NCBI GenBank assembly: GCA_030602565.1
Contig: JAUVZL010000013.1
Location: forward strand, 1-49,002
From: Candidatus Stahliibacteriota bacterium
GTDB lineage: Bacteria > Hydrothermota > Tepidihabitantia > SM23-42
Length of the DNA stretch: 49,002 nt
Direction of reading: 5' to 3'
Made by a program: the position numbers and the translations under genes. The notes beneath the pieces were generated by a model. The model ran no database searches. It was given only the letters and a program-made list of their open reading frames with translations, and was not told where the DNA came from. Shown here in pieces: positions 1,799-48,956 of the stretch (the stretch's first letter is position 1; each line of letters begins with the position of its first letter).

Positions 1799-3733
1799 TC
1801 AATAAAGATATTTTTTCAAGAACAATATCTTTGCCTGATTATAGAAATCCTGGTTGGGTTTTTTGGCCAAACCGTGTCCTTCATCCTCAGCAAGAAGATA
1901 CCAGACGTCAACTTTGTTTTTTCGTACTGCTTTGACGATCTGCTCTGCCTCGGTAACTGGTACGCGCGGATCATTTAAGCCTTGAACTACGAACAGAGGC
2001 TTGGTGATTTTATGAGCATTGGTCAAGGGCGATATCTGTTCTAAGAATTTGCGCATTTGGGGGTCGCGTTCATCACCATATTCTTGCCTTCTTAAGTCCT
2101 GACGGTACTTGCCGGTATTTCGTAAGAAAGTAACGAAATTGCTGATGCCAATAGATTCAATACCACATCGGATACGCTTTGGATAATGGACCATTGCCGC
2201 AAGCACCATATAACCACCATATGAGCCGCCAATAATCGCGACACGCGATGCGTCCAATTCAGGCTGTTTTAGAATCCAGTCGAGCAGCGCACCGATATCA
2301 CGTACCGAGTTTTCCCGATTATACGCATTGTCAAGGGACATGTATTCTTTTCCATAGCCAGAAGAACCTCGGATATTCGGAGCAATGACCCCAATACCTA
2401 ATTCATTCAAATAGAACTGGGTTATTGGCGAAAAACCGGGGACATATTGCACCGCCGGTCCGCCGTGGCACATGATCAATACTGGATAGGGTGGTTTGGA
2501 TCCTGTGGGCTTGAAATAAAATGCCGGGATGAGACGCGGTGCCCCTTCAATACTGTCAAACGTTGGATAATGGATGAGTTGAGGTTGGATAAAGCCTGCT
2601 GTATCAAGACCGGCAACCTCGCTATAGGTCCAGCGTGTGAATGTTTTGTGTTTGAGGTCCAAGGTATACACATCAGTCGGTGATTTAGGCGTGCTAATAA
2701 CCATCGCGAGTTTTCTGCCGTCTGGCTTATATTCAATATTATATATGATACCCTGGGGTAGGCGCGCCTGGCTGATTGAGTATGTCCTGGTGTTCAAAAA
2801 ATAGAGTTTGTGGATACCGTCTTCATTGCTAATTAAGGCAATGGTATCACCAGATGGAGACAACTCGAATTCTTCGATATCCCATGGTATATTTTTTGTT
2901 AAGATTTTATTATTTTTTGTTTTTAGATCATGATATAAAAGCTGTTTGAATTCGCTGTATTGATCAGAAACCATATAGATCCCTTGTCCGTGCTTTGACC
3001 AGTGTGCTATACCATAGGCAATTGCTGAATCGACCGGATTGATCGGGCTCAATGAATTGGTGTTCAGATCTAAGATGTGATAATAAGATTCATTCGATGA
3101 TATATATTGTTTGACCAGGAGTTTTTTGTCATCAGGAGAGAATTCGATTGGTGCCCAATAACCGCTATTTTTACATACCCTTGTGAAAGCCTTTCCTTTT
3201 TTTACAAAACCAAGGTAGATATCAAAGTCCTTGCCGTTTCTCATCGTACTACGAAACGCGAATTTATCGCCTCTATTCGACCAAACTATAGCACCATACT
3301 TAGCTTTTCCATCAGTCAATAATTGCTGCTTGCCGGTTTGGTAGTTATGTTCGTAAATCTGGTATTTTTCATTGCCTGCCGAGTCACTGGTAAAGAGGAA
3401 AAATGGTATTTGTCCATTTGGACAGACATACGCGGCATTCAATGGTTCTTTTGAAAAAGTAAGTTGTTGGCGAAAACCTTTTGGGACTTCAACAAGATGG
3501 ATTTGTGATACCTCAGCCAGCCGCGTGCGGATGAGCATGCCTTTATTATGAGGCAGCCAGCCGCGAAAAGATGCATAATGGGTATTTAAATACGGGGTTA
3601 ATTGCTGCACTAACTCAGCCGGTATGACGGGGATGTTTTCAATGAGGAGATTGTCTTTTCGATACTTTTTTACCTTAGCAAAGCACTCTTGAGCAAGGAA
3701 TAAAATTAATATCAAGAATAATACTTTTTTCAT
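1799..3733 (-). CDS. S9 family prolyl oligopeptidase (acylaminoacyl-peptidase/DPP-like), exported
   Basis: 644 aa. An N-terminal signal peptide (MKKVLFLILILFLAQECFA) is followed by a WD40-like/TolB-type beta-propeller (about 60-370) and a C-terminal alpha/beta hydrolase. The catalytic nucleophile is S504 in GGSYGGY, with the charge relay Asp in GLNDPRVP and His in DEGHGL; HGGP forms the oxyanion region. It should hydrolyse short peptides in the periplasm. The start at 3733 makes a 4-nt ATGA overlap with uppP; the longer frame would disrupt the signal peptide. Exact specificity (dipeptidyl, acylaminoacyl or oligopeptidase) cannot be told from sequence. Confidence 0.9.
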   Translation of the reverse strand: MKKVLFLILILFLAQECFAKVKKYRKDNLLIENIPVIPAELVQQLTPYLNTHYASFRGWLPHNKGMLIRTRLAEVSQIHLVEVPKGFRQQLTFSKEPLNAAYVCPNGQIPFFLFTSDSAGNEKYQIYEHNYQTGKQQLLTDGKAKYGAIVWSNRGDKFAFRSTMRNGKDFDIYLGFVKKGKAFTRVCKNSGYWAPIEFSPDDKKLLVKQYISSNESYYHILDLNTNSLSPINPVDSAIAYGIAHWSKHGQGIYMVSDQYSEFKQLLYHDLKTKNNKILTKNIPWDIEEFELSPSGDTIALISNEDGIHKLYFLNTRTYSISQARLPQGIIYNIEYKPDGRKLAMVISTPKSPTDVYTLDLKHKTFTRWTYSEVAGLDTAGFIQPQLIHYPTFDSIEGAPRLIPAFYFKPTGSKPPYPVLIMCHGGPAVQYVPGFSPITQFYLNELGIGVIAPNIRGSSGYGKEYMSLDNAYNRENSVRDIGALLDWILKQPELDASRVAIIGGSYGGYMVLAAMVHYPKRIRCGIESIGISNFVTFLRNTGKYRQDLRRQEYGDERDPQMRKFLEQISPLTNAHKITKPLFVVQGLNDPRVPVTEAEQIVKAVRKNKVDVWYLLAEDEGHGLAKKPNQDFYNQAKILFLKKYLY

Positions 3734-4482
3734 TTGAAAAACAGGATAAGGATACTTACTACTAAACAATAGATGCCAAAAAGATGAAAATACTTATGGA
3801 CTAATCGGCGCAATATGCTCAAGGCGATGAGACCAAAGATAAAGCTGAAAAACATACCGATTAAAATACTGATTGGGTTATCTATTACTGATATCGTTTT
3901 TAATTCTAAGATATTAGCCCCAAGGATTGCGGGTAAGGACAATAAGAATGAGAATTTAAAAGATTCTTCAGGGCTTATTTTTGAGAATAGTCCAGCCGAG
4001 ATTGTCATGCCAGACCGTGAAATCCCCGGGAATAAGGCAAACATCTGCGCTAACCCGATAATCAATGCGGAAAAGACATTAACTCGCTTATTGCTTTTTT
4101 TGAAAACCATGGTCATAATAAGCACGAGTCCAGTTATCCCCAAAAAGATACTCACCATAGTCATATCTTTGAAAGTTTCTTCGATTTGCGTTCTCAAGAG
4201 CAAGGCAAAGATAACGATGGGGACAGAACCGATAATAATGTTCAAGATATAATTGATACTTTGTTGCTCACGTTTGAATGCACCCTTTAATAACTCGGCG
4301 ATAGGTTTAGCAAAAAACACCAGCGTCGCAAGGAAAGTGCCGAAATGCAAGAAGATTGCCAAGACTACCGGTTCAGTAATACCAAAGTACTTCTCAAGAA
4401 TGGCAAGATGGCCTGAACTTGATATTGGCAAAAATTCAGTAAGGCCCTGGACAATGCCGAGAATGATAATTTTAATAATCAT
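3730..4482 (-). CDS. uppP: Undecaprenyl-diphosphatase UppP/BacA
   Basis: 250-aa polytopic membrane enzyme that dephosphorylates undecaprenyl pyrophosphate and recycles the lipid carrier for peptidoglycan and other envelope polymers. The first family motif is ILGIVQGLTEFLPISSSGHL (residues 7-26), with the catalytic Glu and SSSGH; the second is PGISRSGMTISAGL (about 153-166). Length is typical, slightly short of the 265-273 aa of enterobacterial forms. It overlaps ubiA upstream and the S9 peptidase downstream by 4 nt each, so all are translationally coupled. Its position beside a prenyltransferase and murG fits a polyprenyl-lipid operon. Confidence 0.95.
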   Translation of the reverse strand: MIIKIIILGIVQGLTEFLPISSSGHLAILEKYFGITEPVVLAIFLHFGTFLATLVFFAKPIAELLKGAFKREQQSINYILNIIIGSVPIVIFALLLRTQIEETFKDMTMVSIFLGITGLVLIMTMVFKKSNKRVNVFSALIIGLAQMFALFPGISRSGMTISAGLFSKISPEESFKFSFLLSLPAILGANILELKTISVIDNPISILIGMFFSFIFGLIALSILRRLVHKYFHLFGIYCLVVSILILFFK

Positions 4483-5288
4483 ATGATCATTGCCACAAGA
4501 CCAGTTGCCATGGCGAATTTCAAAAACCTGCTGAGCTTTGAGAATTCACTGGCTGCAGGTTTTTTCACGAGCTTGACCAAACAATAAATGATGATCGGGC
4601 AAGCAAAGAAAAGCACGACAATCATGTATCTCACCGAGAGGATTTCAAGGATATAAGGCAGGGGTAAGAGTATGCACAATACGCCGAGGAAGAAAGCACT
4701 GATTATTGACGCCCGCCGGATACCAAGCGCAATGGGGATTGATACAACATTGTTTTTTTTGTCGCCTTTGATATCGATGATGTCTTTTATGATTTCTCGC
4801 GGCATGTGGATGAAAAACGAGAAAACAAACGGAAAAATGCTTACCGGATTTTTCACCACAATTCCGCCGAGCACAAAACTCAAGCCAGTAATAGCCGATA
4901 CAATAATGTTGGCAACCGGTTTTTTCTTAAGGAATGCGGCATAGGCAAAAAGCAGAATCGATACGCCGAGCACCAGGAAAAAGACCACCAGATTGATGGA
5001 AAGAGAGAATACAAGGGATATGATTAGCAGACATAGTGCCAAGACAATAACGAGTTTCCGGTCTGCCTTACCTGATGCTAGGGGACGCTGCGGGTTATTA
5101 ACTTTGTCGATTTTGATATCATATAGATCATTGATAAGGTTGCCAAAACCACAGGTTACAAACCCGATCATACCGGCTAATATCAATGCAGGCGGTAAGG
5201 TAAAACCATAACCGATCCACGCACCTACCCATACAGAAACCAATGTGATGATGCAATTTATCGGGCGCAGCATTGTGACGTAAGCCAT
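4479..5288 (-). CDS. UbiA-family prenyltransferase, DGGGP-synthase-like
   Basis: 269-aa integral membrane prenyltransferase with about 8 helices. The first Asp-rich motif is NDLYDIKIDKVNNPQRPLAS (about 49-68); the second is DIIDIKGDKKNN. The wording of motif 1 (NDxxDxxIDKxNxPxRPLxSG) is what I associate with archaeal digeranylgeranylglyceryl phosphate synthase and its bacterial FCB relatives, rather than with 4-hydroxybenzoate prenyltransferases. The substrate is therefore inferred; a quinone or heme prenyltransferase role remains possible. It is the first gene of the operon. The ATG at 5288 lies 5 nt after a TACAAT -10 box and no Shine-Dalgarno is present, so translation is predicted to be leaderless. 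Confidence 0.82.
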   Translation of the reverse strand: MAYVTMLRPINCIITLVSVWVGAWIGYGFTLPPALILAGMIGFVTCGFGNLINDLYDIKIDKVNNPQRPLASGKADRKLVIVLALCLLIISLVFSLSINLVVFFLVLGVSILLFAYAAFLKKKPVANIIVSAITGLSFVLGGIVVKNPVSIFPFVFSFFIHMPREIIKDIIDIKGDKKNNVVSIPIALGIRRASIISAFFLGVLCILLPLPYILEILSVRYMIVVLFFACPIIIYCLVKLVKKPAASEFSKLSRFLKFAMATGLVAMII

Positions 5289-5351: not shown

Positions 5352-5379
5352 TTGACATCTAATGATATTTCACTATAAT
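5352..5379 (+). promoter_or_regulatory. Promoter of ruvX-mltG-signalling operon
   Basis: Consensus TTGACA (5352-5357), 16-bp spacer, TATAAT (5374-5379). The leader is about 50 nt, with an AGGAG Shine-Dalgarno before ruvX. No other promoter is obvious until 12892, so it probably drives genes up to 12878. Confidence 0.7.
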
Positions 5380-5434: not shown

Positions 5435-5851
5435 ATGAGAGTTATGGCTATTGATTACGGGAAAAGCAGAGTCGGTATTGCGTTGAGTGATCCACTGGGT
5501 GTAATAGCTCAACCCCTGACAAGCATCAAAGTGAAATCTCAGAAAGAACTCTTCAGACAGATCTTAAAGATAATTCAAGAAAGCGACGTTGGGCTCATTA
5601 TTATTGGCAATCCACTGTCCCATAAAGGGGAAGCTACTGAAATGTCTGATGAAATATCCAGGTTTATAAAGCGGTTAAAAAAGAGGATTAATACCGAAAT
5701 CAAATTATGGGATGAAAGATTTACGAGCCAATATGCCATGAACATATTGAAAACAATGAAGGTAAAAAAACAGAAGGGTTTGGTCGATCAGGTTGCAGCA
5801 TCAATAATGCTTGATGAATACCTGAGATCATGCTCTACATGCACGACATGA
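5435..5851 (+). CDS. ruvX: RuvX/YqgF Holliday-junction resolvase-like nuclease
   Basis: 138-aa RNase H-fold protein of the YqgF family, implicated in 16S rRNA 5' maturation and, by homology, in Holliday junction resolution. The signature VMAIDYGKSRVGIALSDP at residues 3-20 holds the first acidic active-site residue; IIIGNPLSHKGEATEMS is the second conserved region, and LWDERFTSQYA and DQVAASIMLDEYL complete the family pattern. Length is normal. The start is preceded by AGGAGAAAG, a good Shine-Dalgarno. The stop overlaps the start of mltG by 4 nt; yqgF beside mltG is a common bacterial pairing. Confidence 0.93.
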   Translation: MRVMAIDYGKSRVGIALSDPLGVIAQPLTSIKVKSQKELFRQILKIIQESDVGLIIIGNPLSHKGEATEMSDEISRFIKRLKKRINTEIKLWDERFTSQYAMNILKTMKVKKQKGLVDQVAASIMLDEYLRSCSTCTT

Positions 5852-6819
5852 AAGGAACCGCCTTAGCTTGTCTAATATCCGTTATCATTGTTCTTGTCTG
5901 GCTACAGCCTATTAACCTGGGTAGTACAGAAGTGACTATACCGAATGGTGCAACCGCGCGGGAAATCGCCGAAAACCTTGCTCTTCATCGCGTGGTTCGA
6001 GACAAAAAGGAATTCATCCTCTGGTTGAGGATATCAGGTAAGGAAAAAGATTTGAAATCTGGTAGTTATGTATTGCAGAAGTATAAGAATCCACTTTACA
6101 TCATCAATAAACTCTCAGAAGGAAGTCGGTCTGATATTATTGTTACTATACCAGAGGGGCTGACCCTTTATGAAATTGCTGATATCCTCGAGCTCCACGA
6201 TATTGTCAACAGAGATTCTTTTATTGCATTATGCAAAAACAGGTCATTTATCAAGAACGTAGGTTTCACACTTGTTTCGCTTGAAGGATATCTTTTTCCT
6301 GATACGTACTCATTCAGCCTTGCTCAAACCGATTCTTCGGTTATTGCACAACTTCTCGAAAATTTTGGAAGACATCTTGAGAAATACGAAATCCGAACCC
6401 CTGATTCGATTTTTAAAATAATTACGTTGGCATCACTCATTGAAAAAGAAGCCAGGGTCGAGGAAGAAAGACCGATTATCGCCAGAGTTTTTCTAAACAG
6501 GCTTAAGACTAACCGGCCTTTGGAATCTTGCGCAACGGTATTTTATGCCTTGCATATAGCCAAGCCTGATAAATATCAGGAGAAAAACAAATTGACTAAA
6601 CGAGATTTAAAATTCGAGTCATCCTATAATACATACATACATACCGGTCTGCCGCCTGGCCCGATTTGTTCACCTGGCGAGAATTCAATTAAGGCGGTTA
6701 TTTACCCGGCTGACGTTGACTACCTATATTTTGTTGCAAAGGGAGACGGCCACCACCATTTTTCGAAGACGTTCCGGGAACATATTGCGGCAAAGGAAAA
6801 ATACAATGCTGAGAAATGA
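5848..6819 (+). CDS. mltG: Endolytic murein transglycosylase MltG
   Basis: 323-aa YceG/MltG family enzyme that cleaves nascent glycan strands at the membrane and sets their length. One N-terminal transmembrane helix (about residues 4-22) is followed by a LysM-like region (VTIPNGATAREIAENL and TIPEGLTLYEIADIL) and the catalytic domain, with SLIEKEARVEEERPIIARVF containing the catalytic Glu and TYIHTGLPPGPICSPGENSI. I chose the ATG at 5848 because it makes the ATGA overlap with ruvX seen throughout this window; a start at 5830 adds six residues without a Shine-Dalgarno. It overlaps the next gene by 14 nt. Confidence 0.93.
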   Translation: MKGTALACLISVIIVLVWLQPINLGSTEVTIPNGATAREIAENLALHRVVRDKKEFILWLRISGKEKDLKSGSYVLQKYKNPLYIINKLSEGSRSDIIVTIPEGLTLYEIADILELHDIVNRDSFIALCKNRSFIKNVGFTLVSLEGYLFPDTYSFSLAQTDSSVIAQLLENFGRHLEKYEIRTPDSIFKIITLASLIEKEARVEEERPIIARVFLNRLKTNRPLESCATVFYALHIAKPDKYQEKNKLTKRDLKFESSYNTYIHTGLPPGPICSPGENSIKAVIYPADVDYLYFVAKGDGHHHFSKTFREHIAAKEKYNAEK

Positions 6820-9226
6820 ATTTGAAGATATCCTGATACTTGACACACCCTACTATAAGAATCTCACAAAGACATATCGTGACACGGTCAATTTCAGTCG
6901 CTATATCAGTATATTGAAGCAAATCGTCAAAGCAGATGGTTTTCTTAAGGCACTTGAAAATAAAGGCGGTAGGGAATTAGTATATTTAGGTCGGAAGATT
7001 TTCTCTTTGCAAGAAGAATTTGTTACTAATTATCTGAACTTTTTGTCAGACCAGTCGATGATCAACAAATGGGAGGAGTTCTTTGAGCGATACAGCAAGA
7101 ATATATTTGAGATATACCAAAAGTTTGTTGCCAAGGATAGTAACAAGATACTCATTTTTGAAATCGTCAACAGGAAGCTTCTGCGCGACCTCTTGACCAA
7201 ACATACTTATGATACACGTATTGAAAACAGGGCGGTGATCGCTGAGCGTTTTGGTGTTGTCGTAAACCAATTATTCAATTACATTCGAAATTCATTGACC
7301 GAAGACATCACCGTCAATGATGAACTGATTATAGATACATACGAGAAAATTCCACTTTTGCCGCGTTGCGACCGCAGCGAGACCATGAAGTTGTTAGCCA
7401 AGAATTTTCTTCAGCAAGGGTTGCCGGAAAACTTATATACTGCTATTTCAAAGAATATTATGACTACCTATTATGTTGAAACAAAAACAAAAGTTATTGA
7501 TTCACTAGATAAACTGGTCATTCTGACTAAAGACAATATCCGTGAGATATTCAAGACGCACTTCTTTTTTCCTGATGAAGACAGCCTTACTGAGATCATT
7601 GAGTTGCTTAGCAAGAAGGCACGCGAAAAGACTACAATAGTGAAGAATAAGAAAGAGGAGATAGATGGAAGGGTGGCAGTAACACGTCGCAAGATAAAAG
7701 AAACGATGAACACGATAAAAGGCGAATTGATTGGTCTTACGGAGAATTTTTCAACTGAAGAATCGATCGATAACATGATAAAAAGGTTACGTCGCAATCT
7801 AATTAGCAATGCCTATGATTTACGAATTTTTAAAAATCAGTATCAGGAATATGTCAAGAGAGAAAGTGAGCTGGATAGTATTGTGAATTTCAAACCAGGC
7901 GATCTTCAAAAGTTCATTCTAAAGAATGAATGGGATCCGTATATAATTTTAACATTCAGCGGTGATAAAAAAGTCGGTGATGAACAGTTGCAGACGATGG
8001 TCAAGGAGGCGCTTGGAGAAATCAAAGGGAATAAAGAGGCGATGGAGGTGATGAACAGATATCGGGTGACCGGTTTCCTGAAAGACAAGTACGATACAGC
8101 AAAGATTATGGAAAGAGTACAAACCATAAACAGGGAAATAATACTGCCTCTTGTTAAATCATTCCTGTTAGAAGAATTGCTTGATTACTATCCCAAGTTA
8201 TCAGGTGTCGTGTCAGCAGAAAGCATCCGCTTCCTTGCTGAAGAAGCCTTGGCTGGTAAGGTTTCAATGATTGAGAAGGACATTAAGGTCAGTCTCGTAC
8301 AGAAGGGTGAACATCCACTACTCAATATCTCGCGCTACAAAGAATTGGTTTCGATATTTGTTTACGATATCAGGGGTTCCACATTTATGGGAACAAAATT
8401 GATGGATGCGAAGCGAGAAAGCGAAATAAGAAATTTCTTCCAGGAATCAATGCTATCAGTTGCCGAGAAATACGGTGGTGTTCCAATAAAAGACACTGGT
8501 GACGGCGGTATTGTTATCTTCTCAGCCAACCACCAGGCGGTAAAGAACCATGAAACTCTGGAGCTTAAGGGGGGCAGCGTGCTATCGGCGGTAAGGAGTG
8601 GTTTGGAAATGGTCCAGGTCGCAGAAAGTTTTGTGCAGGAGAATATAAACAAATACCAGGATTGGTTCAGGGAGGCAGAGAAACGCAAGATTAACTTCGA
8701 AGGTGCCACCTACGCAACCCTGCCGCCTTCTTACCAGGCTATTTTTCAAATCGGCGTTGGTATAGCTTCAGGAGTATACCCCAAAGAAATATTCTTGGAC
8801 AAGAATGCCTTCGGTGAGCTCGATGTCACTGGTATGCTTGTCCGGGAAGCCAACTTCTATTCGAAAGTCAAAGCAAAGGCTAAATCGACAGTGATCCTTG
8901 ATGATGCCTCAGTTTACAATTTGCTATTAAATGTTAACAAATTTTCTTTCTTGAGTGAAGCAGGGTTAAGAATCGATCCACTTCTGTTAAATATCGAACA
9001 AGGTCTTGAATACTGGATAAATCAAAAATTCACAAGAAGAGGGTTTATCCTTGACCTGTATAAAATATTCGTAACCCAGCTGGGACAGGAGATTTCACAT
9101 CCTGGTAGTCTTAAGATAATAGTGGGCGATTTCGATATTGAGATTGATGAAACTGGTGAGATAAAGGATGACAAAGGTGGGCGCGGAAAGTTCCTCTTTG
9201 AAGTTTTCTCGGAGGCGACGAAATGA
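6806..9226 (+). CDS. Divergent class III nucleotide cyclase-like protein (paralog 1)
   Basis: 806 aa, soluble, no signal peptide. Residues 1-500 are mostly charged helices with coiled-coil potential (about 270-350) and match no family I know. The C-terminus is a cyclase-homology domain: VYDIRGST with metal Asp D521 and KDTGDGGIVIF with D566, so both metal ligands are kept. Between that and IGVGIASG (about 650) lie some 80 residues, about twice the usual gap, including WFREAEKR and TYATLPPSY, which are conserved in the next gene. The later helix reads ANFYSKVK where cyclases have NLAARL, so the Asn may be kept while Arg is Lys. Cyclase activity is therefore uncertain. ATG at 6806 has an AAGGA site; the longer frame runs into mltG. 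Confidence 0.75.
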   Translation: MLRNEFEDILILDTPYYKNLTKTYRDTVNFSRYISILKQIVKADGFLKALENKGGRELVYLGRKIFSLQEEFVTNYLNFLSDQSMINKWEEFFERYSKNIFEIYQKFVAKDSNKILIFEIVNRKLLRDLLTKHTYDTRIENRAVIAERFGVVVNQLFNYIRNSLTEDITVNDELIIDTYEKIPLLPRCDRSETMKLLAKNFLQQGLPENLYTAISKNIMTTYYVETKTKVIDSLDKLVILTKDNIREIFKTHFFFPDEDSLTEIIELLSKKAREKTTIVKNKKEEIDGRVAVTRRKIKETMNTIKGELIGLTENFSTEESIDNMIKRLRRNLISNAYDLRIFKNQYQEYVKRESELDSIVNFKPGDLQKFILKNEWDPYIILTFSGDKKVGDEQLQTMVKEALGEIKGNKEAMEVMNRYRVTGFLKDKYDTAKIMERVQTINREIILPLVKSFLLEELLDYYPKLSGVVSAESIRFLAEEALAGKVSMIEKDIKVSLVQKGEHPLLNISRYKELVSIFVYDIRGSTFMGTKLMDAKRESEIRNFFQESMLSVAEKYGGVPIKDTGDGGIVIFSANHQAVKNHETLELKGGSVLSAVRSGLEMVQVAESFVQENINKYQDWFREAEKRKINFEGATYATLPPSYQAIFQIGVGIASGVYPKEIFLDKNAFGELDVTGMLVREANFYSKVKAKAKSTVILDDASVYNLLLNVNKFSFLSEAGLRIDPLLLNIEQGLEYWINQKFTRRGFILDLYKIFVTQLGQEISHPGSLKIIVGDFDIEIDETGEIKDDKGGRGKFLFEVFSEATK

Positions 9227-11487
9227 ACAAATACCTGATCTCAGATATTCAGAACTTTGTGGAAGAAAAGAGTCAGCAGTGTACATTGCTTAAGGAACGA
9301 TTTATAAATGCCAGTGATTATGCCTACAATATAGCCGCGATAAAACAGGGGTTGGGATTTCTTGGAATTTCAGACGAACCCTTGGTGGTTTTCGAAAACC
9401 GAACAAACTTCGTAATCTGGCTGGGGCGTCGGCTCATTGAATATGATGGTTATGAACTGCCACTTTATATCGGGCATAAGAGGATGGGCTTGCCGGTTCC
9501 TGATGCACTGGTCGAGAAATGTCCTCATGCGATAGTCGGATTTATTGAAAACACGGGTAAGCAAAAATTCGTCCAGGATTTTACAAAGGAACTCAGGAAA
9601 GTATCTTTCTCACTTGAAATATTTCTGTATGTGCACCAAAGTATAATGACCTCCCGTATGGAGAGTCTTTTGCCCGGTTTGCTTTCTGATATAGAAAGGC
9701 TCGGTTTTACCAGTAGAAAAGAAGCGCTCAAAAAAATACCTCAAGTGTATCTTGATTATTTATCCGAAGCCTCGTTTTTGAAATTAACTAAGAAGATATC
9801 TTCGAGGCTGCGGGGGATAAGGACAAAAATGGAGCAAGAGCTTAAGAACATTGATCTATATTCTGTGCGTCTGAAAGAGCAATTGCAAGAATTGTATCTT
9901 GAGGCGGACAAAGGTTTGAGGGATATTATTGAGAATGAAGTTGAAAAGCCGGTAGATGTGAAGGTCGTTACCCAAAAAACCTCTAATTTGTTCTCCCGTT
10001 TAGACCGACTTTTTCTTGGTAATGTTTATCACCTAAAGGATTACGAAAACCGACGTAATGAGATACTTAGGACATTACAGCAGGAAGAAAATTTTAGATA
10101 CAATGTCGAGAAACAAGAATTCAATAAACGCAAAAAGATCGGTGAAATCTACGATGAATTCATGTTTTATAACAAATTCGGTGCCCTGACAAAAAATGAG
10201 CAAAAGGTTTTTACCAAAGGGCTCACCCATAAGTTTGAACAGCTGCACCGTAAGAAAAGCTCGAGTTTGGCGATGCTCAATAAATTTGAGAAACGGGGTT
10301 TATTGTCCGTGGATTTGGATTTTGATGGAATTACACGGGCATACCACACTTTCATAAGGGATTCTATTATCCCCCAACATCTTGGGCAGTGTTTGCTTAA
10401 TTTGGTTAGCTGTTTCCCACCCGCGAGTGATCAGCCTGATAGGGTTGTACGGGATTCAGCAAATTTGAAAATCCTATCTCTTGAAGGCAAAAATGTCTTG
10501 AGCCTACGTGTTAAAAAGCGTTCTTATCCTGAAGATGTGAAGAAGTATGTAGAAACGCTGCGTAGGTGTATTACAATCATGGTTTATGATATCCGAGGTT
10601 CTTCATACATGGGTATCAAGTTGCACGATGCCGCCAAAGAACAGCGGATAAAGTATAAATTTGCCAAAGAGATGGCTGATATTGTCAAAAAACATGGCGG
10701 TTTTTTATTAAAGGACACCGGTGATGGCGGTCTTGTGTGGTTTGCCGAAAACTCGGGTTCGTTATATAGCCACCTTTATACTGAATCGGTCACCGGTCGT
10801 GGCGTTAAATTGCGTTCTTCAATTTTCTCGGGAGCCGAGTTTGATCTCATTCCAGCGGCGGATGCATCAAAGCGTGCGATACTCTGTGCCCGGGATATGG
10901 TTCAACGAGCTGAGGAATTTATCCGTGCCAACTTCATGCACTATCGTGAATGGTTTGCAGAGGTCGCTGAGCGGACCCTTGAGTTAGATGGTATCACTTA
11001 CGCCTTATTGCCGCCAGAGTTTAAGAGTCTTTTCAGAATAGGCGTTGGTATAGCGTCGGGTGTACCGGCCAGAGATGTTGTTTTCTCAGCGAATTCTTTC
11101 GGTGATCCGGATCTCGTCGGACCGATCATGTCAGACGCCAACCTTTACTCTATGGAACGTCAGCCCGGGCGTTCAGTTATCATTTGCGATTTCCCTTCTT
11201 TGGTGAACACAGTGCTAAATATCGAAGGTTATGACTACCCAACTGAAGAAGAGGATTTCGAAAAATACATCCGAGCAGGCGAAGATTTAAGACTTAGCAA
11301 CCATGGCTATCGATTTGGTGATCATAAGATAGCTATTATGCCCCGGGGGATTCACTATTTGGAGGAGCTCAATAAACAGAAAGCAGTTGTAAGCAGCGAA
11401 GTGTCGGACGTGTGGATTAGCGACAATTGTCTCTACAATCAGCAAAAGAAGAAGATAAAACCGATTTACGAAGTAATAAACATATAA
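9223..11487 (+). CDS. Divergent class III nucleotide cyclase-like protein (paralog 2)
   Basis: 754 aa, a paralog of the preceding gene with which it makes an ATGA overlap. The N-terminal 430 residues are helical, with a likely coiled coil at about 190-350. The cyclase-homology domain starts with MVYDIRGSS (D456) and KDTGDGGLVWF (D501). The insertion is longer (about 100 residues to IGVGIASG) and again contains YREWFAEVAER and TYALLPPEF, so this motif is a family trait. The transition-state helix reads DANLYSMER, with Met at the Arg position, so catalytic competence is doubtful; it may act as a heterodimer partner of paralog 1, nucleotide sensor or pseudoenzyme. It ends in a TAATG overlap with the GGDEF gene. 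Ligand and partner are unknown. Confidence 0.72.
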   Translation: MNKYLISDIQNFVEEKSQQCTLLKERFINASDYAYNIAAIKQGLGFLGISDEPLVVFENRTNFVIWLGRRLIEYDGYELPLYIGHKRMGLPVPDALVEKCPHAIVGFIENTGKQKFVQDFTKELRKVSFSLEIFLYVHQSIMTSRMESLLPGLLSDIERLGFTSRKEALKKIPQVYLDYLSEASFLKLTKKISSRLRGIRTKMEQELKNIDLYSVRLKEQLQELYLEADKGLRDIIENEVEKPVDVKVVTQKTSNLFSRLDRLFLGNVYHLKDYENRRNEILRTLQQEENFRYNVEKQEFNKRKKIGEIYDEFMFYNKFGALTKNEQKVFTKGLTHKFEQLHRKKSSSLAMLNKFEKRGLLSVDLDFDGITRAYHTFIRDSIIPQHLGQCLLNLVSCFPPASDQPDRVVRDSANLKILSLEGKNVLSLRVKKRSYPEDVKKYVETLRRCITIMVYDIRGSSYMGIKLHDAAKEQRIKYKFAKEMADIVKKHGGFLLKDTGDGGLVWFAENSGSLYSHLYTESVTGRGVKLRSSIFSGAEFDLIPAADASKRAILCARDMVQRAEEFIRANFMHYREWFAEVAERTLELDGITYALLPPEFKSLFRIGVGIASGVPARDVVFSANSFGDPDLVGPIMSDANLYSMERQPGRSVIICDFPSLVNTVLNIEGYDYPTEEEDFEKYIRAGEDLRLSNHGYRFGDHKIAIMPRGIHYLEELNKQKAVVSSEVSDVWISDNCLYNQQKKKIKPIYEVINI

Positions 11488-12878
11488 TGGAAGCTCTAAT
11501 CTATGACAGTGATCGTCTGCGCCTTGCTACGATGGCGCGCAATTTGCAGGATGTGGGTCTTAATTGGTCTGCAGTTGCAGAACTTGAAGACATAAAGAAA
11601 CGTCTTCAAAAGAAGAAATTTGATTTGCTGATCCTCGATGACTCAGCAATGAAGATACTTGAACGCCTGAGGAAACTGGATTTGACCGTTCCGATTATCA
11701 TGATTACTGATAAGACAACAGAGATCGATTATGAGAAGCTCATTTTCATTGGTGTGGAAGGAGTTATCACTAGGCCCTACCGGGCAGATTTTTTCAAGAA
11801 AGTCGTCACCAAAGCGATGAAGAATAGAAGAGCAGTTCTTACTAACATGAAGGCGATGGTTTCACTCAGACAAAAGATTCAGGAACTGCAAACACTCAAT
11901 GAAGTGGTCCAGGCAATAAGTTCGTCTCTAAAGCCGAATGAAATCCTCCGTATCATTATGGAAAAAACCGCGGATTTGATAAAGGCTGAGGGTTGGTCAG
12001 TACTGCTATTTGATCATGAACAAGGCGAACTTATTTTTGAAGCAGTCGCGGGTGAAGCTGGAAAAAAGCTTCTAGGTTTGAGATTGAAAGTCGGTCAGGG
12101 TGTGGCTGGCTGGGTCGCTCGGTATGGTCAATCCCTGATTGTTCCTGACGTATCCAAGGATCCAAGATTTTACTCCGGCGTCGATAAGAAAACAAAGTTT
12201 ATCACAAAATCAATCCTTTGTGTTCCTATGCGGAGTCGCGATAAAATCATTGGTGTTGTTGAGGTCGTTAATAAGATTGGTGGTGAACCGTTCACCCAGG
12301 ACGACCTTGAGATATTTGAGAATTTCGTGGCTCACGTGACCATTGCGCTGCAAAATGCGACTATGTATCGCAAAATGGAAGAAGCCACTCTGATCGATGA
12401 CCTTACACAGCTTTACAACGTGCGTTTCTGTAACCGGTATCTTGAAGGATATCTGAATGGCCGAAAGACGCAAAAAGGCGTAGTTTCCCTGATCTTTCTT
12501 GACATTGATTTCTTCAAACTTGTGGATGATAATTATGGACACTTAGTCGGCAGCGAAACGTTGAAATATGTTGGGGAAAGGATAAAGCGGGTGGTAAGAC
12601 ACGAGGATGTGGTGATACGATACGGTGGAGATGAGTACATCGTCATTCTTCCTCGTACTGATAAGAAGATTGCCCGGGTTATCGCTGAACGGATTAGAAA
12701 AGAAATTAACCAGGAGCCGTTCTATGCATTCAGTAATAAGAAATTCAACATATCTGTTACGCTTGGCGTGGCAACTTTTCCTGAAGATGCGAAAACCCGT
12801 GACGACTTGATTGGTAAGGCAGACAAAGCAATGTACGAAGGAAAATTATCTGGGCGCGACAGAGTTATCCTTGCCTGA
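11487..12878 (+). CDS. REC-like/GAF/GGDEF diguanylate cyclase
   Basis: 463 aa. Residues 1-112 form a receiver-like domain with the DSD acidic pair, a candidate phospho-Asp in LLILDDSA and IIMITDK, but RPY where the conserved Lys-Pro is expected. A GAF domain follows (about 135-290: LKVGQGVAGWVARYG, SILCVPMRSRDKIIGVVEVVNK). The GGDEF domain has GGDEY at 380-384 and an RHED inhibitory site (R371-D374) five residues upstream, so it should make c-di-GMP from two GTP with product inhibition. The start at 11487 shares one base with the previous stop (TAATG); a longer in-frame start at 11427 would overlap that gene by 60 nt and precede the receiver fold. Operon context couples it to the two cyclase-like proteins. 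Confidence 0.88.
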   Translation: MEALIYDSDRLRLATMARNLQDVGLNWSAVAELEDIKKRLQKKKFDLLILDDSAMKILERLRKLDLTVPIIMITDKTTEIDYEKLIFIGVEGVITRPYRADFFKKVVTKAMKNRRAVLTNMKAMVSLRQKIQELQTLNEVVQAISSSLKPNEILRIIMEKTADLIKAEGWSVLLFDHEQGELIFEAVAGEAGKKLLGLRLKVGQGVAGWVARYGQSLIVPDVSKDPRFYSGVDKKTKFITKSILCVPMRSRDKIIGVVEVVNKIGGEPFTQDDLEIFENFVAHVTIALQNATMYRKMEEATLIDDLTQLYNVRFCNRYLEGYLNGRKTQKGVVSLIFLDIDFFKLVDDNYGHLVGSETLKYVGERIKRVVRHEDVVIRYGGDEYIVILPRTDKKIARVIAERIRKEINQEPFYAFSNKKFNISVTLGVATFPEDAKTRDDLIGKADKAMYEGKLSGRDRVILA

Positions 12879-12891
12879 TACAATATTTTCA

Positions 12892-12919
12892 TTGCCAAAT
12901 GTTGAATTTTGACTATAAT
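12892..12919 (+). promoter_or_regulatory. Promoter of CBS-antiporter operon
   Basis: TTGCCA (12892-12897), 16-bp spacer, TATAAT (12914-12919). ATG follows after 5 nt at 12925, so the mRNA is predicted to be leaderless. Confidence 0.6.
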
Positions 12920-12924
12920 ATAAT

Positions 12925-13416
12925 ATGAAGATTGAAGAACTACCAATTTCTGAGGTAATGGACCGGGATGCTATTACCGTGCAACCCTCAACAACGCTAG
13001 TTGAGTTGATTAAACTGATGAGGAAGCTGAACCAACATATGTTTCCAGTTATTGATAAAGAGAATACCCTGCTTGGTACTGTCAACTACCGTGGCATATG
13101 CAGTATCTTTAGGCCCTTCTCAAGGTCGATTAGTGAAATCGTAAAGAGAATGCCTTTTGTTGAAAATGTTGATGATGAGGATTTAAACCTTGAATTGTCT
13201 CCTGAAATGGGCATGTTGATTCTCGTTGATGATATCGTTAATACGAATTTTATTTCTGTGAAGGAAGATGCCACAATTAAAGAGGCTCGCCGTTTGATGA
13301 AACTACACAATATTGAATTGCTGCCCGTTGTTTCTGACAAGAAATTGGTCGGTATGCTATCTTTGCTCGATATTTTCGTGTATATTTTCAAAGAGTACGA
13401 CATCATAAAAAAGTGA
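12925..13416 (+). CDS. Tandem CBS-domain protein
   Basis: 163-aa cytoplasmic protein made of two CBS motifs (about 7-60 with VMDRDAITVQPSTTLVELIKLM, and about 90-150 with NFISVKEDATIKEARRLMKLHNIELLPVV). Such pairs bind adenine nucleotides and usually regulate a partner enzyme or transporter. The partner is probably the antiporter encoded next, with whose GTG its stop overlaps (GTGA at 13413-13416). No Shine-Dalgarno precedes the ATG; the -10 box ends 5 nt upstream. Which ligand is bound cannot be told from sequence. Confidence 0.88.
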   Translation: MKIEELPISEVMDRDAITVQPSTTLVELIKLMRKLNQHMFPVIDKENTLLGTVNYRGICSIFRPFSRSISEIVKRMPFVENVDDEDLNLELSPEMGMLILVDDIVNTNFISVKEDATIKEARRLMKLHNIELLPVVSDKKLVGMLSLLDIFVYIFKEYDIIKK

Positions 13417-14591
13417 ACACACTCCTGAGTGCTGGTTTAATACTATTACTCGGTTTTATCGGCGCTCGTCTTTTGAAATACGCTCGCTTGCCCAGTGTCA
13501 CCGCATTTCTTCTCGTCGGTATTCTGATCGGTCCCCATGTTCTGAATCTTGTCACGGTGGGGATATTCGCGGCATCTGACTTCTTCTCGAATCTGGTATT
13601 GGGGGTTATTGCTTTTAGCCTGGGTGAGAATTTCCGACTGGAAGAGATAAAGAAAGGTATGAAACAAGTGATGTGGATTTCTCTTACGGCAGCATTGGTA
13701 ACATGGCTGCTTGTTTCAGTGGCAATTATTTCTTATCTGATCATTATTGGACATCCGATATATCCGGCAATTGTGCTTGGCGCAGCTGCTTCGGCGACCG
13801 CCCCTGCGGCGACGGTTCTGGTCATCCGTGAGTATCGCGCCAGCGGATTTTTTACTGAAATGCTTCTTAAAGTTGTTGCCATTGATGATGCCTGGTGTCT
13901 TATGCTGGCTGCTTTGGCAATTGCGTTTGCTAATGCCATGAGGGCTGAGGTATTTCAGATGACAATAGTCTTTGCTGGTATAGGTGAGATATTCGGAGCC
14001 CTTATTATTGGTGCGTCATTTGGCTATCTCTTTTCCTTTTTAAGGCGCTTTGTGAAAACCTCAGAGGAATTTTTGGTTTATATTTTTGGTTTGATATTAT
14101 TGAACGTTGGATTCTCCATTGCCATACACGTATCGATTTTACTGTCTTCAATGATGATGGGTATTGTTGTAATAAATCTAGCGCGCGAGAATTACAAATT
14201 CTTTGAGGTTATAAGGACCGTCGATGCGCCGCTCTACCTGATTTTTTTCATTCTTGCCGGCGCACATTTAGACTTCACAATTCTCTATAAAATGGGTATT
14301 GTCGGTGTGCTATACATCATCTTTCGTGTCATCGGAAAAGTGTACGGTGCAAGACTCGGTGCGAGAATAAGCAAGGCACCTAAGTCAATTGAGAATTGGA
14401 TAGGGTTGAGTCTGACGCCGCAGGCTGGTGTCGCGCTTGGCATCGGACTCGTCGCCAAATCAACTTTTCCTGATTTTGGTAATTACATATTCACCGTGAT
14501 CGCAGCAACAACCGTGATCTTTGAATTAGTAGGTCCACTTCTTACAAAGATTAGTTTGATTAAAGTTGGGGAGATTGTATCAACTGAATAG
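13413..14591 (+). CDS. CPA2 (Kef/NapA-type) cation:proton antiporter, copy 1
   Basis: 392-aa membrane protein with about 12-13 helices and no C-terminal TrkA-N domain. Family features: FLLVGILIGPHVLNLV near residue 40, the GAAASATAPAATVLVIREY stretch (about 125) and KVVAIDDAWC (about 150), whose adjacent acidic pair is the ion-binding site of electrogenic CPA2 exchangers. It should exchange Na+ or K+ for H+ at the inner membrane. GTG start overlaps the CBS gene stop, so the CBS protein is a likely regulatory subunit. The next gene is a tandem paralog. Confidence 0.88.
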   Translation: MNTLLSAGLILLLGFIGARLLKYARLPSVTAFLLVGILIGPHVLNLVTVGIFAASDFFSNLVLGVIAFSLGENFRLEEIKKGMKQVMWISLTAALVTWLLVSVAIISYLIIIGHPIYPAIVLGAAASATAPAATVLVIREYRASGFFTEMLLKVVAIDDAWCLMLAALAIAFANAMRAEVFQMTIVFAGIGEIFGALIIGASFGYLFSFLRRFVKTSEEFLVYIFGLILLNVGFSIAIHVSILLSSMMMGIVVINLARENYKFFEVIRTVDAPLYLIFFILAGAHLDFTILYKMGIVGVLYIIFRVIGKVYGARLGARISKAPKSIENWIGLSLTPQAGVALGIGLVAKSTFPDFGNYIFTVIAATTVIFELVGPLLTKISLIKVGEIVSTE

Positions 14592-15762
14592 CACTCTTGG
14601 TTTAGCTTTAATCATTATCACTGGTTATTTCGGCGCCAGGTTGCTGCGTAAAATTCATTTTCCTGCAGTAACAACATACCTCTTGGTTGGCATTCTCATC
14701 GGACCCAATTTACTGAATCTCATACCGGTAAGGATAATGATGCTCTCTGATTTCTTATCGAATTTCGTTTTAGGGATAATCGCATTTTCACTCGGCGCAA
14801 ACTTCACGATAAAAAGTATTAAAGCATCAGGTTCCCCAGTGATCTGGATATCCCTTTTAGAAGCAAGTTTTGCTTCGATCCTTGTTACACTTGTACTGAT
14901 TACCTATGCAGTCTTGAGAAACACAGCGATACAGCCTTTCTTTGTGCTTGGCGCGGCGGCAGCTGCCACTGCACCGGCAGCCACCGTTATGATCATTAGA
15001 GAATATCGTGCTCGAGGGGCGGTTACTGAAATGCTTTTGCGAGTAGTTGCCATCGATGATGCCTGGTGTCTGATCTTATCAGCATTTGGCATAATGTTAG
15101 CCAGTGCCTTGGCGAGCGGATCAGCCAATTTCACTATTATTATAAGTTCACTTGCTCATGTGCTTTTGTCGGTTGTGCTGGGTGGCCTATTGGGGGTTGG
15201 TTTGCACTGCTTCTCGAAGTTTGTGAGGAATAAAGAAGAATTGCTCATTATAACCCATGGCTTTATCCTTTTTATCGTTGGTTTATCAATTCAATTGCAT
15301 TTGTCACCACTTTTGACGAGCATGGTCAGCGGTATCGTTATTGCCAATATATCAAACAGAAGTACGCCATATTTCGAATCGTTGCGCAAAGTTGATATGG
15401 CTCTATTTTTGGCATTTTTTATTCTCGTTGGCGCAAATCTGGAAATCGGCATGGTTCCGCAGGTCGGGATTGTTGGACTGCTCTATATTGTATCCAGAGT
15501 TATCGGAAAGTTCGTTGGTGTTGCAGTAGGCGCTCGAATTAGCCGGGTTGATCCGCGCATTGGAAAGTACCTGGCGTGGGGTCTTGTGCCCCAGGCAGGT
15601 GTTGCCCTGGGCGTGGCTCTTTCTGCTAAGGCATTATATCCGGCGTACGGGACGATGATTTTTACGACGATAACCGCGACCACTGTAATATATGAATTAA
15701 TTGGTCCATTGTGTACAAAATACGGACTAAAGAAGGCAGGGGAGATCACGTCAACTGAGTAG
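14566..15762 (+). CDS. CPA2 (Kef/NapA-type) cation:proton antiporter, copy 2
   Basis: 398-aa paralog of the preceding antiporter along its whole length (GAAAAATAPAATVMIIREY, RVVAIDDAWC, LVPQAGVALGVALSAKA). It probably arose by tandem duplication, and the two may form a heterodimer or differ in ion preference. The start is uncertain. No ATG exists: TTG 14566, TTG 14575 or CTG 14584 are possible, all overlapping the previous gene. A GGGGAG at 14568-14573 suits 14584 best, where the sequence also aligns with the paralog's first residue. Convergent with tRNA-Pro. Confidence 0.86.
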   Translation: MGRLYQLNSTLGLALIIITGYFGARLLRKIHFPAVTTYLLVGILIGPNLLNLIPVRIMMLSDFLSNFVLGIIAFSLGANFTIKSIKASGSPVIWISLLEASFASILVTLVLITYAVLRNTAIQPFFVLGAAAAATAPAATVMIIREYRARGAVTEMLLRVVAIDDAWCLILSAFGIMLASALASGSANFTIIISSLAHVLLSVVLGGLLGVGLHCFSKFVRNKEELLIITHGFILFIVGLSIQLHLSPLLTSMVSGIVIANISNRSTPYFESLRKVDMALFLAFFILVGANLEIGMVPQVGIVGLLYIVSRVIGKFVGVAVGARISRVDPRIGKYLAWGLVPQAGVALGVALSAKALYPAYGTMIFTTITATTVIYELIGPLCTKYGLKKAGEITSTE

Positions 15763-15774
15763 TATTTGAATAAA

Positions 15775-15848
15775 TCGGGGCGATCCGATTTGAACGGACG
15801 ACCTCCAGCACCCCAAGCTGGCGCGCTAAACCACTGCGCCACGCCCCG
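15775..15848 (-). tRNA. tRNA-Pro (GGG)
   Basis: A complete cloverleaf on the minus strand: a 7-bp acceptor (CGGGGCG with CGCCCCG), a GCGC D-stem, and anticodon stem CCAGC/GCTGG with loop TTGGGGT giving anticodon GGG. The T-arm has the TTCAAAT loop and the discriminator is A. CCA is not encoded. A strong promoter lies about 55 nt upstream. Confidence 0.95.
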
Positions 15849-15901
15849 CACAAAATTTACCCTATCCCATATCCACCATTGATAGCGGGAGAGGATATTC
15901 A

Positions 15902-15929
15902 ATTATAGCGACCCAGATTTTAAAGTCAA
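15902..15929 (-). promoter_or_regulatory. Promoter of tRNA-Pro
   Basis: Minus strand: TTGACT (15929-15924), 16-bp spacer, TATAAT (15907-15902), directed at tRNA-Pro. It lies just beyond the nikR stop codon, so it could also be boosted by nikR read-through. Confidence 0.65.
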
Positions 15930-48746: not shown

Positions 48747-48768
48747 TATACCTCCATTTCTTTTGGTA

Positions 48769-48841
48769 TGGAGCCGACGGGATTTGAACCCGTGACCTCT
48801 TGACTGCCAGTCAAGCGCTCTCCCAACTGAGCTACGGCCCC
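48769..48841 (-). tRNA. tRNA-Ala (GGC)
   Basis: Complete cloverleaf on the minus strand: acceptor GGGGCCG with CGGCTCC including the G3-U70 pair that identifies alanine tRNAs, D-arm GCTCAGTTGGGAGAGC, anticodon stem CTTGA/TCAAG with loop CTGGCAG (anticodon GGC), and T-arm GGGTTCAAATCCC. Discriminator A, CCA not encoded. Confidence 0.96.
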
Positions 48842-48956
48842 ATTATATTGTAAAACAAAGGGTAACAGTTTAGTTTTTCCCAAAAATTCTTATACCTATC
48901 ACTCAAACTTCGCTCCTTTAATGGGACCACCATCATACCCCACACATTACATATTT

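Follow-up and report, generated by a model that had tools for sequence, protein, structure and literature searches.

Paralogous class III cyclase-like proteins encoded next to a GGDEF protein in WOR-3 bacteria: a candidate nucleotide-responsive partner of a diguanylate cyclase

The closest worked example of a class III cyclase gene that adjoins a GGDEF gene is found in Xanthomonas campestris, where cGMP made by XC_0250 activates the adjacent GGDEF protein XC_0249 through a cNMP domain, and a mononucleotide signal thus controls c-di-GMP synthesis (PMC3770947). The locus described here lies in a 49,002-nucleotide stretch of DNA from a WOR-3/Stahlbacteria MAG (the whole stretch is referred to below as the window) and resembles the Xanthomonas pair in gene layout; we propose that c-di-GMP synthesis may be controlled likewise by two cyclase-like proteins, P1 and P2, acting with a GGDEF protein, P3. 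The systems differ in that XC_0249 has a cNMP-binding domain where P3 has REC and GAF domains instead, and XC_0250 is an active guanylate cyclase whereas P1 and P2 carry an adenine-type Lys/Asp pair but no catalytic Arg; moreover, P1 and P2 are tandem paralogues, none of which are described for XC_0250/XC_0249. In fold, in the two metal-binding Asp residues and in the purine Lys/Asp pair the P1/P2 family agrees with class III adenylyl cyclases such as Pseudomonas CyaB (3r5g), Spirulina CyaC (1wc1) and mycobacterial Ma1120 and Rv1900c, but it departs from them in the absence of the Arg of the N-x3-R motif, in an insertion between strands beta-3 and beta-4, in an unrelated helical N-terminus and in lying below Pfam detection. 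There is also a likeness to the mammalian heterodimers of C1/C2 adenylyl cyclase and of soluble guanylate cyclase, in which the cyclase domains are likewise paralogues whose catalytic residues have diverged; in those enzymes, however, the metals or catalytic residues are lost from one site, whereas in P1 and P2 alike the metal and purine residues are retained and the Arg is missing. The DUF2652 nucleotide-cyclase-like proteins are comparable in that they, too, are bacterial, class III-like and divergent, with an activity that is not known (PMC4886424), although P1 and P2 have no DUF2652 match in Pfam and occur in other phyla and in another gene context. A literature search whose coverage left out most subscription journals returned no report on WOR-3 cyclases.

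P1, P2 and P3 span positions 6806-12878 of the window as three open reading frames, in the following setting:

5352-5379, plus strand: sigma-70-like promoter before ruvX, TTGACA-16-TATAAT, 12/12 consensus positions (pattern scan)
5435-5851, plus strand: ruvX/yqgF-like gene, an ORF named at first reading, heading a putative operon; its place is conserved in families f1-f3
5830-6819, plus strand: mltG-like gene, an ORF likewise named at first reading
6806-9226, plus strand: P1, 806 aa, helical N-terminus, class III cyclase-homology domain and C-terminal extension
9223-11487, plus strand: P2, 754 aa, paralogue of P1 with the same layout
11487-12878, plus strand: P3, 463 aa, degenerate REC, GAF and GGDEF domains
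12892-12919, plus strand: strong promoter-like site after P3 and before a CBS gene, TTGCCA-16-TATAAT (pattern scan)

There is a 14-nt overlap between the mltG-like gene and P1, the P1 stop and P2 start codons overlap by 4 nt in an ATGA (9223-9226), and P2 and P3 meet in a TAATG (11485-11489) of which the P2 stop codon TAA occupies 11485-11487 and the P3 ATG 11487-11489; the three coupled genes reported in the first-pass annotation are thus present as described. The promoter at 5352-5379 is likely to be the start of the transcript and the site at 12892-12919 likely marks the end of the unit, and these two sites suggest that ruvX, mltG, P1, P2 and P3 are probably transcribed together. No RNA element was found in the region with Rfam. 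Behind the strong promoter-like site, the plus strand at 12925-15762 encodes a CBS-domain-like gene followed by tandem cation/proton antiporter-like paralogues (392 and 398 aa), a cluster that is kept 3' of P3 in many f1 genomes. The minus strand at 1799-5288, divergent from ruvX, carries S9 peptidase-like, uppP/BacA-like and UbiA-like genes whose place is kept in most f1 genomes. Two tRNA genes, tRNA-Pro(ggg) at 15775-15848 and tRNA-Ala(ggc) at 48768-48842, are on the minus strand; an antisense ORF at 15483-15902, over tRNA-Pro(ggg), is spurious.

P1 and P2 align by BLASTP with 26% identity over 565 columns (E 5e-54), and the alignment takes in some 300 residues of the helical region. In P1 the helical N-terminus comprises approximately residues 1-500 and the class III cyclase-homology domain approximately residues 508-722, with the C-terminal extension beyond. 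No Pfam or NCBIfam model above cut-off matches either protein, and their assignment to class III is based on Foldseek and hhalign. CyaB (3r5g) is the best Foldseek match for both, the matches with a probability near 1 are class III cyclases only for each of the two, and hhalign of the cyclase region of the family against the genome's own canonical cyclases (97.5%, E 4.9e-12) sets the residue correspondence used below. AlphaFold models are helical and confident for the N-terminus of P1 and mostly helical for that of P2, and the cyclase part of both is of low confidence in these monomer models (17-row alignment). The N-termini match no family in Pfam, NCBIfam, PDB sequences or Foldseek, so that the earlier description of paralogues with a C-terminal class III domain and N-termini of no recognised family is upheld on both counts. 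A known sensory family was rejected as their source, the sole match being a weak, coiled-coil-like one of P2 to UPF0335; this profile match joins residues 138-222 to the helical UPF0335 structure (PDB 6jyk, E 2.4e-4) and possibly reflects a coiled coil alone. None of P1, P2 and P3 contains a long hydrophobic, membrane-type stretch. A Pycsar-like role in phage defence was also rejected, PADLOC giving no match.

The WOR-3 and Edwardsbacteria phyla were covered in depth, and a single wider genome scan relied on two exact peptide patterns; MAGs make up most of the genomes, some being scaffolds joined by N runs, and f, G and L below label families, genomes and loci. P1, P2 and P3 occur in every searched genome of the taxonomic order except G026 (84% complete). 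Apparent breaks inside P2 of G007 and G022 were rejected as real, since they are assembly artefacts at 100-N joins. Gene maps show the order ruvX-mltG-P1-P2-P3 in f1 and f2 and, at 30-40% identity, in f3, and the exact 4 nt ATGA overlap of P1 and P2 is found in 19/19 loci with an adjacent pair; an arrangement held to such identity, with the overlap at every locus, is beyond chance. In f15 the pair is adjacent and overlapping, without the rest of the cluster. Relatives are present in 53 of 147 genomes across the WOR-3 phylum and in all ten Edwardsbacteria genomes searched. The P1 clade is monophyletic (support 100/99), and P1 is an old duplicate of P2 within WOR-3. It is absent from Edwardsbacteria, f11, f20 and f21, and in f16, f28 and f30 it is encoded at a separate genomic site; outside f1-f3 and f15, P1-like genes lie beside valS or between rplQ and valS.

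A P2-like gene followed directly by a GGDEF gene was seen in 43 of 50 gene maps from the two phyla, spread over ten WOR-3 families (f1 and f2 together 16, f3 1, f16 4, f20 1, f21 4, f28 1, f29 2, f30 5, f31 1) and Edwardsbacteria (8). With only ten GGDEF genes in the 2.7 Mb of the genome that contains the window (G000), the expected chance of such adjacency is well below 1% per gene. Exceptions, which count against the regulatory reading given below, are the seven maps in which the P2-like gene has no GGDEF neighbour (five in f11, with G129 and G072) and G070, where a lone P1-like gene directly precedes a GGDEF gene. Upstream of P2-GGDEF there are five unrelated neighbours, namely mltG with P1, pyrC (of pyrR-pyrB-pyrC), pilT (of pilB-pilT), a tldD/pmbA-like protease and creatininase; since the tie is constant while the neighbourhood varies, P2 with its GGDEF gene is the core unit. 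Adjacency to the GGDEF gene in related genomes had been set in advance as a test of the first-pass annotation, and it was found throughout the order and, as P2-GGDEF, beyond it. A link to cell-wall growth through ruvX and mltG had also been suggested. The position of the mltG-like gene is conserved in f1-f3 only, and the gene maps of other lineages do not place it beside the module, which beyond the class stands behind pyrRBC, pilB/pilT, tldD/pmbA or creatininase genes; with the P2-GGDEF tie conserved and the neighbourhood not, there is no argument for a cell-wall role, and we rejected it as lineage-local.

Active-site residues were compared in 81 cyclase-domain rows, representing 79 distinct loci. 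Both metal-binding Asp residues (D521 and D566 in P1 numbering), the adenine-specifying Lys (K562) and the purine Asp (D673) are present in 81/81 rows, and the transition-state Arg of N-x3-R in 0/81. Of the seven canonical cyclases of the window's genome that could be read, six keep the motif, so its loss belongs to the P1/P2 family, which thus has the fold, profile, metal Asp residues and Lys/Asp pair of class III and is without the N-x3-R of an active enzyme. The insertion between the beta-3 and beta-4 strands amounts to some 65-85 residues. At the position of the catalytic Asn the rows have Arg (29), Asn (28), Ala (11), Ser (6), Asp (5) or Gly (2), and Arg marks exactly the P1 clade (29/29 rows). 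P1 itself has R680 at this position and F684 at that of the catalytic Arg; P2 of the window has Ser and Leu respectively, with its metal Asp residues and purine Lys/Asp retained. The Asn is kept in every P2 lineage that lacks P1 (Edwardsbacteria, f11, f20 and f21) and is gone from P2 in f1-f3 and f30 alone, which have P1; this association of Asn loss with the presence of P1 is suggestive and represents two events on the tree. Five positions past the missing Arg there is a Lys, Arg or His in 78/81 rows, which could serve as a stand-in for it.

Pfam identifies REC, GAF and GGDEF domains in P3 and no cNMP-binding (CRP-type) domain. Its active site is GGDEY, with GGDE(Y/F) in every P3-type homologue whose GGDEF domain is complete, and judged by this motif P3 should be an active diguanylate cyclase. 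The RxxD I-site reads RHED in P3 and is kept in f1/f2 and some Edwardsbacteria, being lost in most other families. The first-pass annotation of a REC-GAF-GGDEF protein with both sites intact needs amendment only in that the REC domain is degenerate: D7 and D51 are present, the Lys is replaced by Arg, six residues are missing past D51, and D51 itself is lost in two f2 genomes, so that the acidic pair, phospho-Asp, Thr/Ser and Lys-Pro of a phosphorylated response regulator are not found as a complete set. P3-type proteins of f28-f30 and f13 have no REC domain at all. With REC neither part of the core nor intact in the window lineage, where the conserved Lys and part of a loop are gone, phosphorylation is unlikely to be the main input to P3. 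The GAF domain, whose fold serves in some proteins to bind cNMPs, is present in P3 and most homologues and absent from the GGDEF partners in f20 and f21. G000 also encodes 11 canonical class III cyclase matches, four cNMP-binding (CRP-like) proteins and three MshEN domains; PilZ was rejected as a c-di-GMP receptor, there being none in the genome.

The reading that we prefer, with a probability of roughly 45%, is that the cyclase-like proteins form a class III module which binds ATP, has altered catalysis and controls how active the partner diguanylate cyclase is. Such a module would be cytosolic, with nucleotide binding by the class III cyclase-homology domains as its input and c-di-GMP as its output. 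By analogy with the family, P2 (here with P1) would dimerize in cyclase fashion through the C-terminal domains, and the invariant residues may hold metal-ATP at the dimer interface; the long helices would relay the bound state, or an unknown N-terminal ligand, to the GGDEF protein of the same transcript, and direct contact could then move the diguanylate cyclase activity of P3 up or down. After duplication of P2 in WOR-3, the catalytic Asn would have become Arg in P1 and been lost from P2 in the window lineage, probably giving an asymmetric P1:P2 heterodimer here and a P2 homodimer where P1 is absent. The heterodimer put forward previously is therefore plausible and not universal, P1 being absent from or encoded apart in several lineages. 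It had further been proposed that the pair makes or senses a nucleotide. Invariant ATP- and metal-binding residues agree with this, the missing Arg speaks against the making, and the two together tilt the case towards sensing or altered catalysis: canonical cAMP synthesis by the module is probably weak or absent, which would make an ATP-state sensor more likely than a cAMP source. A broader claim, which we put forward only tentatively, is that these proteins form a new class III cyclase-derived family in at least two phyla that has given up ordinary catalysis and now serves a diguanylate cyclase as its ATP-sensing regulatory subunit; c-di-GMP would then be set directly by adenine nucleotide status, and WOR-3 would have a two-paralogue sensor with a reshaped interface.

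The main rival to the sensor model is that P1 and P2 are active cyclases with a shifted catalytic residue, whose cAMP binds the GAF domain of P3 or CRP-like proteins and in this way acts on c-di-GMP. The basic residue at +5 is a counterpoint to a sensor, in that it might replace the Arg and leave an active enzyme; the invariant metal and adenine residues, with a Lys/Asp pair of the ATP type, the frequency of GAF in the GGDEF partners, the cNMP-binding proteins and canonical cyclases of the same genome, and the cGMP precedent of XC_0250/XC_0249 (PMC3770947) can all be read in the same direction. We nevertheless think this route somewhat unlikely, as the transition-state Arg is absent from all members, P3 is without a CRP-type domain and the f20/f21 partners are without any GAF. 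An asymmetric heterodimer with one rebuilt site, in which P2 would supply the metals and P1 the Lys, Asp and new R680, so that the pair alone is catalytic and P2 alone inactive in the window lineage, would account for R680 throughout the P1 clade, for loss of the P2 Asn in P1-bearing lineages alone and for the fixed translational coupling of P1 and P2 in f1-f3 and f15. It is improbable, however: the metal Asp pair of P1 shows no relaxation, the P1 and P2 genes lie apart in f16, f28 and f30, and the Asn losses amount to only two events on the tree. Against the preferred reading, too, stands the retention of all four binding residues in both paralogues, which differs from mammalian C1/C2, so a simple one-site heterodimer is not indicated. 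Least probable of these alternatives is that the module hitch-hikes in housekeeping operons, sharing a transcript while its cyclase-like and GGDEF proteins are functionally unlinked; its location inside core operons (ruvX-mltG, pyrRBC, the ligA/pil region) and the lineages that lack a GGDEF neighbour fit such a view, which accords poorly with a P2-GGDEF tie that persists in two phyla as all other neighbours change.

The near-constant adjacency of P2-like and GGDEF genes in two uncultured groups suggests an unrecognized ATP-linked c-di-GMP switch and, if the sensor model is correct, a conserved and hitherto undescribed pathway leading from mononucleotides to c-di-GMP in phyla where genetics is almost lacking. 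The family would also test the capabilities of class III cyclase domains that have no catalytic Arg, and its natural series (an Asn-bearing P2 by itself; a P2 lacking Asn alongside an Arg-bearing P1) provides ready comparisons for cyclase evolution. At several loci of other WOR-3 families (L154:3687-12041, L194, L198, L199 and L201) the P2 homologue is part of a pyrR-pyrB-pyrC(-P2-GGDEF)-uridine kinase-like cluster, where a pyrimidine link is possible. In f20/f21 (L164, L165, L166, L192 and L193) it lies 3' of pilB (MshEN) and pilT and 5' of the GGDEF gene, an arrangement that suggests type IV pili to be a target of c-di-GMP in these families.
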